NCBI GenBank assembly: GCA_903825645.1
Contig: CAIKBL010000075.1
Span: 1 to 39,397, forward strand
Length of the DNA stretch: 39,397 bases
Reading direction: 5' to 3'
Origin: an uncultured Pseudomonadota bacterium
Lineage (GTDB): Bacteria > Pseudomonadota > Gammaproteobacteria > Ga0077536
The notes beneath the pieces are model-generated. The model saw only the letters and a program-made list of their open reading frames with translations, was not told where the DNA came from and did not search any database. Position numbers and translations under genes: made by a program. Below are positions 3,152 to 20,133 of this stretch, in pieces; the stretch's first letter is position 1, and every line of letters starts with the position of its first letter.

Positions 3152-4582
3152 TCAGGGTTGTGCATGTGCAGAAGGGGCCGCCGCCGATGGGCTCACCAGC
3201 GTCGAGGGCGTGTCGTTGGCCGCGGGCAGCACCGGCAGGTCGCTGGCGGGGCGATCGATGACGCGCGGATCAGCGGCGTGGACGGGGCTCGCCGCGCCGC
3301 CTGAGGCGTGTAATGCGGCATCATTAGGATTCAGTTCGACGATTTCAATGGGTTTGCCGTCTCGCATGCCGGCGCGGTGCGCGCTCTCCGGGATGGCGTT
3401 AGACAGCCAGTTTCGAACCGTCAAGGCGGACTCCGCGAGGTAGGTGCGCCAAGAGGTCACGCCGGCGGCGGAGGTGCTTGCGGTGGACTCGGCGACCCAA
3501 GCATGGACTAGCGCCGGAGCATCCCCACGCATAAGCGTGAAGCCGAGGACGAAGGCTCCGGAAAGTGCGAGACACGCGATCAAGATCACCGCGACCTTCG
3601 CCACCGGGTTGAGACTTACGGGAAGTCCCTCCTCCGGATCTTCCGCGACGGGCGCGCGGATCTGGCCTCGCCCTTCGTGGCGGAGCGTCGGGATGGCGGC
3701 GAGGGGTTCACGGGTTTCGCCGCTGGCATTAAAAATCGGTCGCTCCCGCGCGACCCGACCGTTCAGTCGGGGGGTGAAGCTACCATCCACCGTCGTGATG
3801 GCGACACGGCAGACCCAGATCAGGGTCCGATCGTCTGCGGCTACCGCGGGTAAATCAGTGGCGGCTAATAGGGCGAGGGCGTGGACATCCCGCTCGTCGT
3901 TGTCCCGTTGCGTGAGTAACGTCTGAAACGCGGGACCCACGAACTGGCTGCGGGCGGTGCGCTGCGGGGTGATTGTGAGCGACATCCCGGTTTCGGTGCC
4001 TAAAATAGCCCAGTCGACTTTCGGCAAGGAAGCAATGCGCAGGCGCCTGGCCCACGCCCTGTCTGTGACGAACGCCAAGCCCTGGTTCTGTGCGTTGGGA
4101 TCGGCATCGGAGACGAGGTAGTCGTCCGCAAAGTCGACCACGCGCGGCGAGGCGCGGGAGGCCGAACCCGCAAGATAGCCACCATCACCAATCTGCACCG
4201 ACAAGCCGCCGGTAGGGCCGAGCAAGAGCGCGTTCAAGGTGCACTGGTAGTCACGTAGCTCCTCGGTGCCCGCGTGTGCGCGCAGCTGATCTCGCACGGC
4301 GATCAGACCTCGGATGATTTCGTCGTTTATCAAGGCGTCCGAGCGCTGCTCTTCAAGACGCGGTGTCAGACGGATGAGGACAGCAGCGAACGCCCGGGCG
4401 ACGATCGAGGCTCCTTCGTCAGACTGGGGCGCGGTACCGGTGCCGTCGGCGACGACCATAGCGAGCCACTGCCCGTTGGCACTGGCTTCTACGGCATGCG
4501 CATCCTGGCAGGGCGTGTGATCCCGCAGATGATTTTCGCTGGCCGCCGAAGCGGCCGCTATCTTCCAACGATTAACAGACAT
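3152..4582 (-). CDS. PP2C-family protein phosphatase with a C-terminal membrane segment
   Basis: A 476-residue PP2C-type (PP2C_2) serine/threonine phosphatase. Candidate metal-binding acidic residues are D27 in CQDAHAV, D46 in VVADGTG, D133 in IGDGGYL, and D250/D251 before LIWVCRV. These fit the Mn/Mg-dependent phosphatase core in the first ~260 residues. A basic, proline-containing linker follows, then one hydrophobic segment at about residues 327-350 (VAVILIACLALSGAFVLGF). The last ~125 residues are Ala/Ser/Pro-rich and low in complexity. The catalytic domain is thus probably cytoplasmic and tethered to the membrane, with the tail outside. No Ser/Thr kinase or FHA gene lies nearby, so the substrate is unknown. 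The start at 4582 has no clear Shine-Dalgarno sequence. Confidence 0.82.
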   Translation of the reverse strand: MSVNRWKIAAASAASENHLRDHTPCQDAHAVEASANGQWLAMVVADGTGTAPQSDEGASIVARAFAAVLIRLTPRLEEQRSDALINDEIIRGLIAVRDQLRAHAGTEELRDYQCTLNALLLGPTGGLSVQIGDGGYLAGSASRASPRVVDFADDYLVSDADPNAQNQGLAFVTDRAWARRLRIASLPKVDWAILGTETGMSLTITPQRTARSQFVGPAFQTLLTQRDNDERDVHALALLAATDLPAVAADDRTLIWVCRVAITTVDGSFTPRLNGRVARERPIFNASGETREPLAAIPTLRHEGRGQIRAPVAEDPEEGLPVSLNPVAKVAVILIACLALSGAFVLGFTLMRGDAPALVHAWVAESTASTSAAGVTSWRTYLAESALTVRNWLSNAIPESAHRAGMRDGKPIEIVELNPNDAALHASGGAASPVHAADPRVIDRPASDLPVLPAANDTPSTLVSPSAAAPSAHAQP

Positions 4583-17332: not shown

Positions 17333-18187
17333 TCATTTTCGCTTAACGTGCTCTTCCAGTTCCCTGAAAGAGGGGCGCTCGGTAGAAAAAATGGCCTTGC
17401 GGCCGAATTCCACCGCTATCTGGGGCGAATAGCCCTGCTGTGAGGCTAGCAGAGCCGTCTTGATGACTTTGAAAAATTGCGCCTCGTCGCGTGCGAGATG
17501 TTCCACGCTGGTCGCCACCGGGCCGATGAGACCGTAGGCGAGGAGGATCCCGAGGAAAGTCCCGACCAGCGCCGAGGCCACATGGTGGCCGATTTCTTTT
17601 GCGGGCCCATCCAGCGCGCCCATCGTGATGACGATGCCGAGGACTGCCGCCACAATCCCGAAGCCAGGCAAACCGTCCGCAACCCGGCTCAGGGCGGAGG
17701 CCGGTTGTGCCCCCTCTTCGTGATGGGTGTCGAGCTCCACGTCCATCAGATTTTCGAGTTCGAAGGCATTCTTGATGCTGCCGCTGACCATGAACCTCAG
17801 GTAGTCCGTCAGGAACTCAACGGCATGATGGTCATGCGCAATGACCGGGTATTTTTCAAAGATAGGGCTCTTGTCGGGCTCTTCGACATCGGCTTCCAGC
17901 GACATCATGCCTTCTTTCCGCGCCTTGGCGAGGAGATCATAAACTAGGGCTAGCGCGTCCATGTAAAGGCTCTTTTTGTATTTCGAGCCTTTGAGCAGCG
18001 CCGGCAGACTCGCCGCGGCGGCCTTGATGACCTTGATCGGATTGGAGATGCAGAAGGCGCCGAAGGCGGCGCCCCCGATCACGACCAGTTCGAAGGGTTG
18101 CCAGAGCGCGAGGAGATTCCCTCCCAGAAGGGTGAAGCCGCCCGCGACGCTACCAAAAACAACGAGGATCCCGACAAGGACATTCAT
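17333..18187 (-). CDS. motA: Flagellar motor stator protein MotA
   Basis: A 284-residue inner-membrane protein with four hydrophobic segments: two at the N-terminus (VLVGILVVFGSVAGGF; FELVVIGGAAFGAF) and two at about residues 165-225. A long cytoplasmic loop between them, rich in charged residues, contacts the rotor in studied homologues. The conserved Pro appears in DGLPGFGIVAAVLGI and a second in LIGPVATSVEH. I chose the ATG at 18187. A TTG six bases further upstream is the only alternative. Transcription probably starts from the sigma-28-like promoter at 18231-18257. Partner of MotB in a stator complex; forms an operon with it. No chemotaxis genes are in the window. Confidence 0.95.
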   Translation of the reverse strand: MNVLVGILVVFGSVAGGFTLLGGNLLALWQPFELVVIGGAAFGAFCISNPIKVIKAAAASLPALLKGSKYKKSLYMDALALVYDLLAKARKEGMMSLEADVEEPDKSPIFEKYPVIAHDHHAVEFLTDYLRFMVSGSIKNAFELENLMDVELDTHHEEGAQPASALSRVADGLPGFGIVAAVLGIVITMGALDGPAKEIGHHVASALVGTFLGILLAYGLIGPVATSVEHLARDEAQFFKVIKTALLASQQGYSPQIAVEFGRKAIFSTERPSFRELEEHVKRK

Positions 18188-18230
18188 GTGCAAATAAACC
18201 GTTGAGTTTCATTGGGCTTCACTCGATGAC

Positions 18231-18257
18231 TTATCGGCGAGGTCGCGGGGGTCTTGA
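18231..18257 (-). promoter_or_regulatory. Sigma-28 (FliA)-type promoter for motAB
   Basis: Read on the minus strand the site is TCAAG, 14 bases, then GCCGATAA. The -10 element is a perfect match to the flagellar sigma-28 consensus GCCGATAA and the -35 matches TAAAG at four of five positions, with exact consensus spacing. It would give a leader of roughly 35-40 bases before the motA ATG. Confidence 0.8.
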
Positions 18258-18272
18258 GGCCGCAGGCGACGC

Positions 18273-18299
18273 TAAAGCCGGTTGCGCGACGGTCGCTAA
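18273..18299 (+). promoter_or_regulatory. Sigma-28-like promoter for the REC-GGDEF-EAL gene
   Basis: TAAAG (18273-18277) is a perfect sigma-28 -35 element. After exactly 14 bases comes GTCGCTAA (18292-18299), matching GCCGATAA at six of eight positions. It faces right, about 40 bases before the ATG at 18343. It is weaker than the motAB promoter but has the same architecture in the same intergenic region. Confidence 0.55.
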
Positions 18300-18342
18300 A
18301 TCAGTCACTCAGCGATGCGACTAATCGAGTCCCCTAGATACG

Positions 18343-20133
18343 ATGCTCCTCAGCCTGTCCTTAAATCAGCCGCCGACCACGCGAAGCGACAACGTGCTGT
18401 CGCTGCTGCTCGTGGAAGATCATCCGGGTGATGCCTTGCTCATCCGGACACTGCTGCTTGAGGCCGCGCCCCGCAGCCTCCAGATCCAGGTGGCGCCCAC
18501 CCTGGCGGAGGCGTGTCGGCAGTTGCGGGGCACCCCGGTTGATGCGGTCTTGAGCGATCTCGACCTGCCCGACTGCGAGGGGTTCGATACCTTAAGGGAG
18601 CTCCTGCAAGCGACCGAAACGATACCGATACTCGTCCTGACACACTGCGAAGAAGAGGCGTTCGGCCTGGAACTGATCAAACGGGGGGCGAGTGATCACC
18701 TGATCAAAGGGCAGGTAGACGGTCGACTTCTTTTGAAGGCCATCCGCTATGCGATCGAACGCAAGGAAACTGAACGACGTTTCCAAATACTTTCCCGGTT
18801 TGATCGACTGACTGGATTGGCTAATCGCGAACATTTCGGGGAGCGCTTCGCACAGGCCATCGGGCGGGCGGAGCGTTCGGGTCGATTCGTCGCGTTGCTG
18901 TTTCTCGATCTGGACCGCTTTAAATCGGTCAATGACACCTTGGGCCATATGGTCGGTGATACGCTGCTGGTGGAAGTCGCTCATCGACTTCAGAACTGCG
19001 TCAGAAAGGTCGACACCATTGCCCGGCTAGGGGGCGACGAATTTACCGTCATTCTAGAGGAGCTCGAGAATACCTCGGATGCGCAAGTAGTTTGCGATAA
19101 AATTATTAAAGCGCTAGAAACGCCTTTTCTGATCCTGAACCACGAGCTCTATGTCACGACCAGTATCGGGATTACGTTCTATCCGTCGGATGATCTCACC
19201 CCGCATGATTTGTTGCGCAACGCCGATGCGGCCATGTACCGGGCCAAAGATGAGGGCCGTAACAAGTTTCACGTGTTCACTTCTGACCTCAATGTGAAAG
19301 CACAGCGGCGGCTGGGACTTGAATCCGCGTTGCGCCATGCGATCGACCGCGACGAATTACACTTGTGCTATCAACCGACCCTGGATGTGCATACCGGTGT
19401 GGTGCTGGGCGCGGAGGCGCTGTTGCGTTGGAACCACCCGCAGTTGGGTAGTGTGTCGCCACTCGAGATGATCCCGATAGCGGAAGACACGGGCTTAATC
19501 GTGCCCATTGGTGCCTGGGTGCTCAGACGGGCCAGCCTGGATGCCCGACAGTGGCAACTCGCGGGCTTTCCGACCTTACGCGTCGCGGTCAATCTTTCGG
19601 CCCGGCAATTTCGCGGACAAGACCTCTTCGGCACCGTTTGCGCGGCGCTGGAAGAAGCCGATCTCAAGCCCGAGCTTTTGCAACTCGAAATCACCGAATC
19701 GCTGTTAATGGAAGATACCGATCGCAGTATCGCGGCACTGCGGGCGCTGAAATCGCTGGGGCTGGGTATTTATCTAGACGATTTTGGGACCGGCTATTCG
19801 TCGCTGGCCTATCTGAAACGATTCCCGTTGGATGGACTCAAGATTGATCGCTCCTTTGTTCGAGATCTGCCACACGATAGCGAGGACGAGGCGATCGCAC
19901 GCGCCATTCTGGCGCTCAGCACCGCCTTGCGCCTGCGGGTGGTGGCAGAGGGCGTAGAAAACACGGAACAATTCGATTTTCTGCGCAATGAGGGCTGCGA
20001 CGAGGCACAGGGTTTCCTCTTTTCCCGTCCGTTGGTGCGCACCGATTTCATGGAATGGCTCAAAAAATCGACCAAGCCCCCGCAAGCGGGCGTTGTGCGC
20101 CGGCTGCAGGCCGACCGCCGCCGTAAGGCCTGA
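18343..20133 (+). CDS. Response regulator with GGDEF and EAL domains (c-di-GMP turnover)
   Basis: A 596-residue soluble protein. Residues ~19-130 form a receiver domain with phospho-acceptor D72 in VLSDLDLPD and a conserved Lys in HLIKG. Residues ~150-310 form a GGDEF domain with an intact RLGGDEF active site near residue 230 and DLDRFKSVND as the metal/GTP motif. Residues ~325-570 form an EAL domain with EALLRW, VNLSARQF, LEITES, DDFGTGYSS, KIDRSF and AEGVE all present. Both catalytic halves thus look active, so the net direction (c-di-GMP synthesis or breakdown) cannot be told. No histidine kinase gene is adjacent. It diverges from motAB, with a sigma-28-like promoter in front, which suggests expression with late flagellar genes. 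No clear ribosome-binding site. Confidence 0.93.
   Translation: MLLSLSLNQPPTTRSDNVLSLLLVEDHPGDALLIRTLLLEAAPRSLQIQVAPTLAEACRQLRGTPVDAVLSDLDLPDCEGFDTLRELLQATETIPILVLTHCEEEAFGLELIKRGASDHLIKGQVDGRLLLKAIRYAIERKETERRFQILSRFDRLTGLANREHFGERFAQAIGRAERSGRFVALLFLDLDRFKSVNDTLGHMVGDTLLVEVAHRLQNCVRKVDTIARLGGDEFTVILEELENTSDAQVVCDKIIKALETPFLILNHELYVTTSIGITFYPSDDLTPHDLLRNADAAMYRAKDEGRNKFHVFTSDLNVKAQRRLGLESALRHAIDRDELHLCYQPTLDVHTGVVLGAEALLRWNHPQLGSVSPLEMIPIAEDTGLIVPIGAWVLRRASLDARQWQLAGFPTLRVAVNLSARQFRGQDLFGTVCAALEEADLKPELLQLEITESLLMEDTDRSIAALRALKSLGLGIYLDDFGTGYSSLAYLKRFPLDGLKIDRSFVRDLPHDSEDEAIARAILALSTALRLRVVAEGVENTEQFDFLRNEGCDEAQGFLFSRPLVRTDFMEWLKKSTKPPQAGVVRRLQADRRRKA

Follow-up and report, generated by a model that had tools for sequence, protein, structure and literature searches.

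The logic of FliA-controlled c-di-GMP enzymes is already known from precedents in Escherichia coli and Pseudomonas. In E. coli, FliA drives motAB-cheAW, yhjH (pdeH), and ycgR; the stator operon, the c-di-GMP gene yhjH, and the PilZ brake gene are thus all FliA-driven, from sites that lie far apart on the chromosome (PMC4183435). The set of genes described here resembles that regulon in its three kinds of gene and differs from it in that the stator and enzyme sites lie in one shared gap. In Pseudomonas putida, bifA has two transcription starts, one of them 40 nt 5′ of the start codon and behind a sigma-28 site, and overexpression of FliA reduces c-di-GMP in a BifA-dependent manner (PMC5300878). 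A fliA mutant of Pseudomonas aeruginosa has raised c-di-GMP and lowered bifA expression (PMC4866697). The likeness to our locus is that a c-di-GMP phosphodiesterase gene is activated through FliA; the differences are that the second P. putida start is a sigma-70 start, FliA control being partial (PMC5300878 and PMC5026340), and that the sections available of PMC5300878, PMC5026340, and PMC4866697 do not mention adjacency of bifA to motA. Pseudomonas flgM-flgN-flgZ is a FliA-dependent operon, and in P. putida the truly bifunctional c-di-GMP protein PP2258 affects motility through FlgZ (PMC6093933 and PMC3913639). As in that operon, the flgMN genes here are followed by a YcgR-like PilZ gene. The differences are that the available sections of these two sources mention no placement of the enzyme gene beside stator genes, and that the enzyme here has a receiver domain and is preceded, next to motAB, by a sigma-28 site of its own.

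Among the titles and abstract openings listed for open-access papers, none described motA and a REC-GGDEF-EAL gene diverging from a gap that has a sigma-28 promoter for each; such a case may exist outside them. The product of E. coli yhjH is an EAL protein without a GGDEF domain, whereas here a REC-GGDEF-EAL gene diverges from motA.

The divergent gap and the strength of its sites

The window, that is, the whole stretch of 39,397 nucleotides that was analysed, is contig C75 of a 4.1 Mb genome assembled in 90 contigs (G000, the own genome), and its closest named relatives are gammaproteobacterial MAG contigs. Two public MAG contigs (L036 and L039), with MotA proteins 81% and 74% identical to that of the window, are titled Klebsiella pneumoniae; these titles look wrong. 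In the window, motA and the REC-GGDEF-EAL gene diverge from an intergenic gap of 155 bases at 18188-18342, and the back-to-back sigma-28-type sites that the first-pass annotation had placed there were borne out on both strands (Table 1). MotA matched TIGR03818 with 394 bits (cut-off 304), and MotB, encoded downstream of motA on the same strand, matched NF006548 with 362 bits (cut-off 277). Position 18343 is the sole start codon of the REC-GGDEF-EAL gene between the in-frame upstream stop and the domain match. Both −10 boxes end 43 bases 5′ of the start codon (18187 for motA and 18343 for the enzyme gene), and the predicted leaders would be about 36 nt for both genes if the starts fall 7-8 bases beyond the −10 box. 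No sigma-70-like site was found at 18100-18420, and none was expected either (shuffle mean 0.0). The own genome encodes FliA on contig C65 (TIGR02479; 271 bits, above its cut-off). About 160 bases upstream of this FliA match, on the same strand, is a strong and possibly autoregulatory sigma-28-like site (21.5; L192:8632-8659, minus strand).

Table 1. Genes and putative promoters around the motA/REC-GGDEF-EAL gap of the window
Feature	Position	Strand	Evidence
motB, stator subunit, 382 aa	16143..17291	-	NF006548 over cut-off; PF13677, PF00691
motA, stator subunit, 284 aa	17333..18187	-	TIGR03818 equivalog over cut-off; PF20560, PF01618
Putative sigma-28-type promoter of motAB, TCAAG-N14-GCCGATAA	18231..18257	-	exact match, conservation, shuffles
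Putative sigma-28-type promoter of REC-GGDEF-EAL gene, TAAAG-N14-GTCGCTAA	18273..18299	+	conservation, shuffle control
REC-GGDEF-EAL gene, 596 aa, putative bifunctional c-di-GMP enzyme	18343..20133	+	PF00072, PF00990, PF00563

TMAAG-N14-GCCGATAA had a single match without mismatches in the 4.1 Mb genome, the motA site, and when the gap region was dinucleotide-shuffled 400 times, no shuffle reached the score of that site. Sigma-28-like patterns with up to two mismatches occurred 233 times genome-wide, against 228 for the reversed control; as there was no general excess, pattern counts alone were discarded as evidence. The plus-strand site is weaker than the motA site, its −10 box, GTCGCTAA, having two mismatches relative to GCCGATAA. 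We scored it with two matrices. The first was made from motA promoters outside the order, using the 41 of 70 scanned motA upstream regions in which at least 10 of 13 positions matched the consensus and the site ended 35-110 bases from the start. Another 6 loci, out of 76 considered, had been left out, their motA start being unmatched. Selection by consensus match biases this matrix towards GCCGATAA. On it the plus site scored 6.6, lower than all 41 training sites (9.4-25.3), and 11 of 400 shuffles reached this score; for the plus sites of the seven relatives with the same gene pair (see below), 0 to 9 of 400 shuffles reached the score. The second matrix was made from 18 sites of the order itself (13 motA and 5 flagellin), including sites of the own genome, and its background includes the true sites, the plus site among them. 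On this matrix the plus site scored 16.5, within the training range (14.0-25.3), and the expectation for a score as high is about 0.004 per 155 bases on one strand. The fifth base of the −10 box is C in 5 of the 18 second-matrix sites. Taken alone, the plus site is only marginal against the general model that the first matrix represents.

The flagellin sites of the second matrix came from a scan of 12 of the 24 flagellin-domain matches in 8 genomes: five scored at least 12 and entered the matrix, three scored 11.0-11.5, and four had no site. The flagellin gene of the own genome, on C65, has a strong site (22.1). Upstream of flgM on the same contig lies TCAAG-N15-GTCGCTAA, with a −10 box identical to that of the plus site.

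These scores bear on the reading that only the motA site is real, the plus-strand match having arisen by chance and the enzyme gene using an unrecognised promoter. The low score on the outside-order matrix with its 11 shuffles, the two −10 mismatches, and a genome lacking any general excess of such patterns all fit a chance match, whereas the identical −10 box before flgM argues against one. The decisive evidence came from related genomes.

Conservation of the paired sites

A MotA orthologue (at least 66% identity) was found in 13 of 36 genomes of the order, the own genome included, and in 8 of those 13 a REC-GGDEF-EAL orthologue was divergent from motA and adjacent to it. The eight pair genomes (G000, G002, G005, G008, G009, G010, G013, and G014) belong to two genera of one family. 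Conservation in related genomes had been named by the first-pass annotation as a check on its proposal, and a sigma-28-like site was present on each strand, facing its gene, in all eight, the window and seven relatives. The annotation had also described the spacing as exact; this holds for the window, where both sites have N14, but the spacer between the boxes was 14 or 15 bases among the pair genomes. The motA site was found at a similar distance in 13/13 MotA genomes of the order, again including the own genome, with scores of 7.9-19.8. In G005, which is 87% complete, both sites were present and a FliA match was absent. A class-wide sample of 369 genomes yielded three matches at E <= 1e-175, all of them from the own genome or its family (two).

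Since G009 and G010, and likewise G013 and G014, are near-identical at the locus, the eight genomes represent six lineages. Over these six (15 pairs), the mean pairwise identity of the plus site was 0.64 in the −35 box and 0.76 in the −10 box, compared with 0.28 and 0.27 in the flanks. Such values are inflated by the location of the boxes through a motif search; hence the same search was rerun in shuffled gaps, where the mean identity was 0.37 and 0.41, and none of 200 shuffled sets matched either the observed plus-site identity or the summed score. An unanchored MAFFT alignment placed the plus −10 boxes together in 5 of the 6 lineages; that of G008 was not aligned, its site lying about 70 bases further on. 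The boxes of the plus site were thus maintained while the surrounding gap diverged.

With the second matrix, 3 of the 10 enzyme orthologues with readable upstream DNA had a plus site within the training range (G000 as given above, G002 at 19.2, and G026 at 16.0); the other seven were below it (G005 at 13.8, G008 at 11.9, and G009, G010, G013, G014, and G017 each at 9.2). The −10 box degrades after GCCGCT in G009/G010 and likewise in G013/G014, and in G014 a different position in the larger scanned stretch slightly outscored the plus site (8.4 vs 8.2). A chance match would be consistent with the seven low scores; it is hard to reconcile with retention of the site in 8/8 pair genomes and before both readable non-adjacent orthologues described below, with conservation limited to the two boxes and unmatched by the 200 shuffled sets, and with the failure to find such a site before five other EAL genes. 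As far as sequence comparison can judge, conservation settles that the plus site is no chance match, and we consider it very unlikely that the motA site is the only real one.

The distance between the −35 outer edges was 15, 16, 25, 85, 23, and 23 bases in the six lineages. In the window, where it is 15, two polymerases could touch, judging from known footprints, and the two sites might then form a single composite divergent element at which FliA polymerases interfere or cooperate and so fix the ratio of stator to enzyme. A geometry that ranges from 15 to 85 bases is not a fixed one and therefore points to two separate promoters; a composite element seems to us improbable.

The enzyme gene beside motA and away from it

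Orthologues of the REC-GGDEF-EAL protein (at least 60% identity) were found in eleven genomes. In one of them, G006, the gene is cut by the contig end; the ten with readable upstream DNA, the own genome included, all had the site upstream, with scores of 6.6-18.3. Two of these ten are not adjacent to motA, and both have a sigma-28-like site. In G017, a gene for a 939-aa PAS histidine kinase separates motA from the REC-GGDEF-EAL gene, and the stretch from the kinase gene to the enzyme gene contains a site scoring 18.3. In G026, where FliA is present and this MotA was not found at E <= 1e-40, the site before the orthologue scores 15.8; a squalene-hopene cyclase gene lies 3′ of the enzyme gene both there and in the window. 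No such site was seen for the more distantly related enzymes of G018 and G020 (about 50% identity). The own genome's five other EAL genes, scanned from 300 bases before to 60 after the furthest start, were also without one; their best scores were 4.7 (first matrix) and 6.4 (second matrix), compared with 6.6 and 16.5 for the plus site. The plus site accompanies the enzyme gene rather than motA, and adjacency of the enzyme gene to motA is dispensable. That a common sigma-28 factor controls both the stator and the c-di-GMP enzyme, as first suggested from the window, is thereby well supported by comparison, both by the 8/8 pairs and by the 2/2 non-adjacent orthologues.

Two further features of these genomes were recorded. 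The G017 kinase (L189:3186-6005) is a multi-PAS histidine kinase, 939 aa being its longest frame, and may be a partner for the receiver domain. Position 3208, just inside that frame, has a weak sigma-28-like match (6.0), which would therefore be upstream of the kinase gene only if translation in fact begins beyond it. G026 has on C67 (L149) a second GGDEF-EAL gene, 46% identical, with a very strong upstream sigma-28-like site (21.2).

Alignment of the ten orthologues showed intact GGDEF, RxxD I-site, and EAL catalytic motifs in every one, at the residues that we take to be catalytic in the two domains. The enzyme probably makes or breaks c-di-GMP. The receiver was more variable. What we presume to be the phospho-accepting aspartate and the acidic pocket were intact in the window (VED...SDLDLPD), G002, G005, G008, and G017; in G026 the aspartate is retained and the pocket reads EE; and in G009, G010, G013, and G014 (L139-L142) the aspartate is replaced by glutamate and the conserved threonine is also lost. 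With the aspartate lost in four orthologues, the phosphate site is thus less widely conserved than either the promoter or the catalytic domains. Over the GGDEF-EAL part, NCBIfam equivalog matches were all below their cut-offs, the best being DibA (500 of 980 bits), and neither YhjH nor BifA appeared by name among the matches listed for the enzyme (25 of 66 families).

The enzyme orthologue was present in 9 of the 13 genomes with this MotA and in 2 of the 23 without it (Fisher p = 0.0003, uncorrected for kinship); with the partial G006 gene excluded, p was 0.00007, also uncorrected for kinship. In G012, G018, G019, and G020, motA had no adjoining enzyme orthologue. Both promoters could be real and their shared gap nevertheless meaningless, the enzyme being another late flagellar gene whose product acts away from the motor, for example on adhesion or polysaccharide. 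Persistence of the promoter with the enzyme gene in G026 and G017 despite the non-adjacent motA, the loose spacing between the sites, and the four genomes just named would all be expected on that account; less easily explained by it are the retention of the pair in eight genomes of two genera despite a diverged gap, the co-occurrence with MotA, even uncorrected as it is, and the YcgR-type gene that lies behind flgMN under a sigma-28-like site in the own genome. We regard this account as a serious possibility, to which we give rather less than even weight.

A proposed route from FliA to the motor

We think it very probable, from the promoter comparisons above, that the gap holds two FliA promoters through which motAB and the enzyme gene would be co-induced. 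Because each gene has a conserved sigma-28 promoter, the two are likely to be induced in concert, as part of the late flagellar set. Whether the enzyme affects the motor is a separate question, to which we assign about an even chance of a positive answer; direct control of motor output by the c-di-GMP enzyme is a reasonable hypothesis. The first-pass annotation had gone further in proposing a direct c-di-GMP route to the motor. The sequence does not show such a route: no physical link to the stator was visible, and the likely effector is a PilZ protein encoded elsewhere, behind flgMN. FlgM and FlgN were identified on C65 behind a sigma-28-like site, and directly behind their genes lies that of a 245-aa PilZN-PilZ protein of the YcgR/FlgZ kind (PF07317, PF07238), which, from the spacing, is presumably co-transcribed with flgMN. 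The flgM-flgN-PilZN-PilZ stretch is L194:9746-11299 (G000 C65).

As the stator, the enzyme, and the effector all lie behind sigma-28-like sites, a circuit connecting them is plausible. FlgM is exported after completion of the hook during flagellar assembly. With that export, FliA would switch on the stator genes and the enzyme gene simultaneously, and would induce flagellin and flgMN-ycgR alongside them. The enzyme, tuned via its receiver domain where that is intact, would set a c-di-GMP level sensed by the YcgR/FlgZ-type PilZ protein, which in turn would adjust the torque or bias of MotAB-containing motors. If E. coli YhjH and Pseudomonas BifA are a guide, the enzyme would more likely act on balance as a phosphodiesterase in swimming cells.

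Other genes of the own genome also have sigma-28-like sites. Among its nine MCP genes, C38 carries a site (21.1) upstream of the furthest start, and C30b carries one (16.3) within the longest reading frame; C30a and C40a gave no first-matrix site on re-scanning (best −2.0 and −3.9). A gene for a 168-aa PilZ protein on C21 (L198:1337-1908) has a strong site, TCAAG-N14-GCCGATAC, directly upstream, with a score of 19.0; at E <= 1e-20 this protein matched in only 1 of 35 other genomes, with 37% identity, and for this reason the gene was kept out of the main claim. The site of a PilZ gene on C51 (11.6) was set aside, as it lies within an upstream reading frame. Among the relatives, G014, G013, G009, and G010 (L129-L132) encode a second MotA-like protein, 38% identical to that of the window; a further FliA match occurs in both G009 and G010, and flagellin-domain matches number six in G009 and six in G013, which hints at a second flagellar system.

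A broader reading is that the motor of this family has a c-di-GMP switch of its own, which belongs to the late flagellar programme. FliA would co-induce MotAB, a YcgR-type brake, and a response-regulator enzyme with both GGDEF and EAL domains, and in some lineages (G017) this enzyme would be fed by a PAS histidine kinase whose gene lies between motA and its own; elsewhere the receiver would have lost its phosphate site and transcription would be the main control. We offer this reading tentatively and consider it, as a whole, doubtful. The locus itself adds a case, conserved and testable, in which the late flagellar programme appears to take in c-di-GMP metabolism, the enzyme gene being placed beside the stator operon. 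Loss of the receiver phosphate site with persistence of the promoter and the catalytic motifs suggests that transcriptional control can outlast phosphorylation as an input. The enzyme may ultimately regulate the product of the adjoining stator operon; if it does act on the motor, one sigma factor would set both the supply of stators and the signal that slows the motor.
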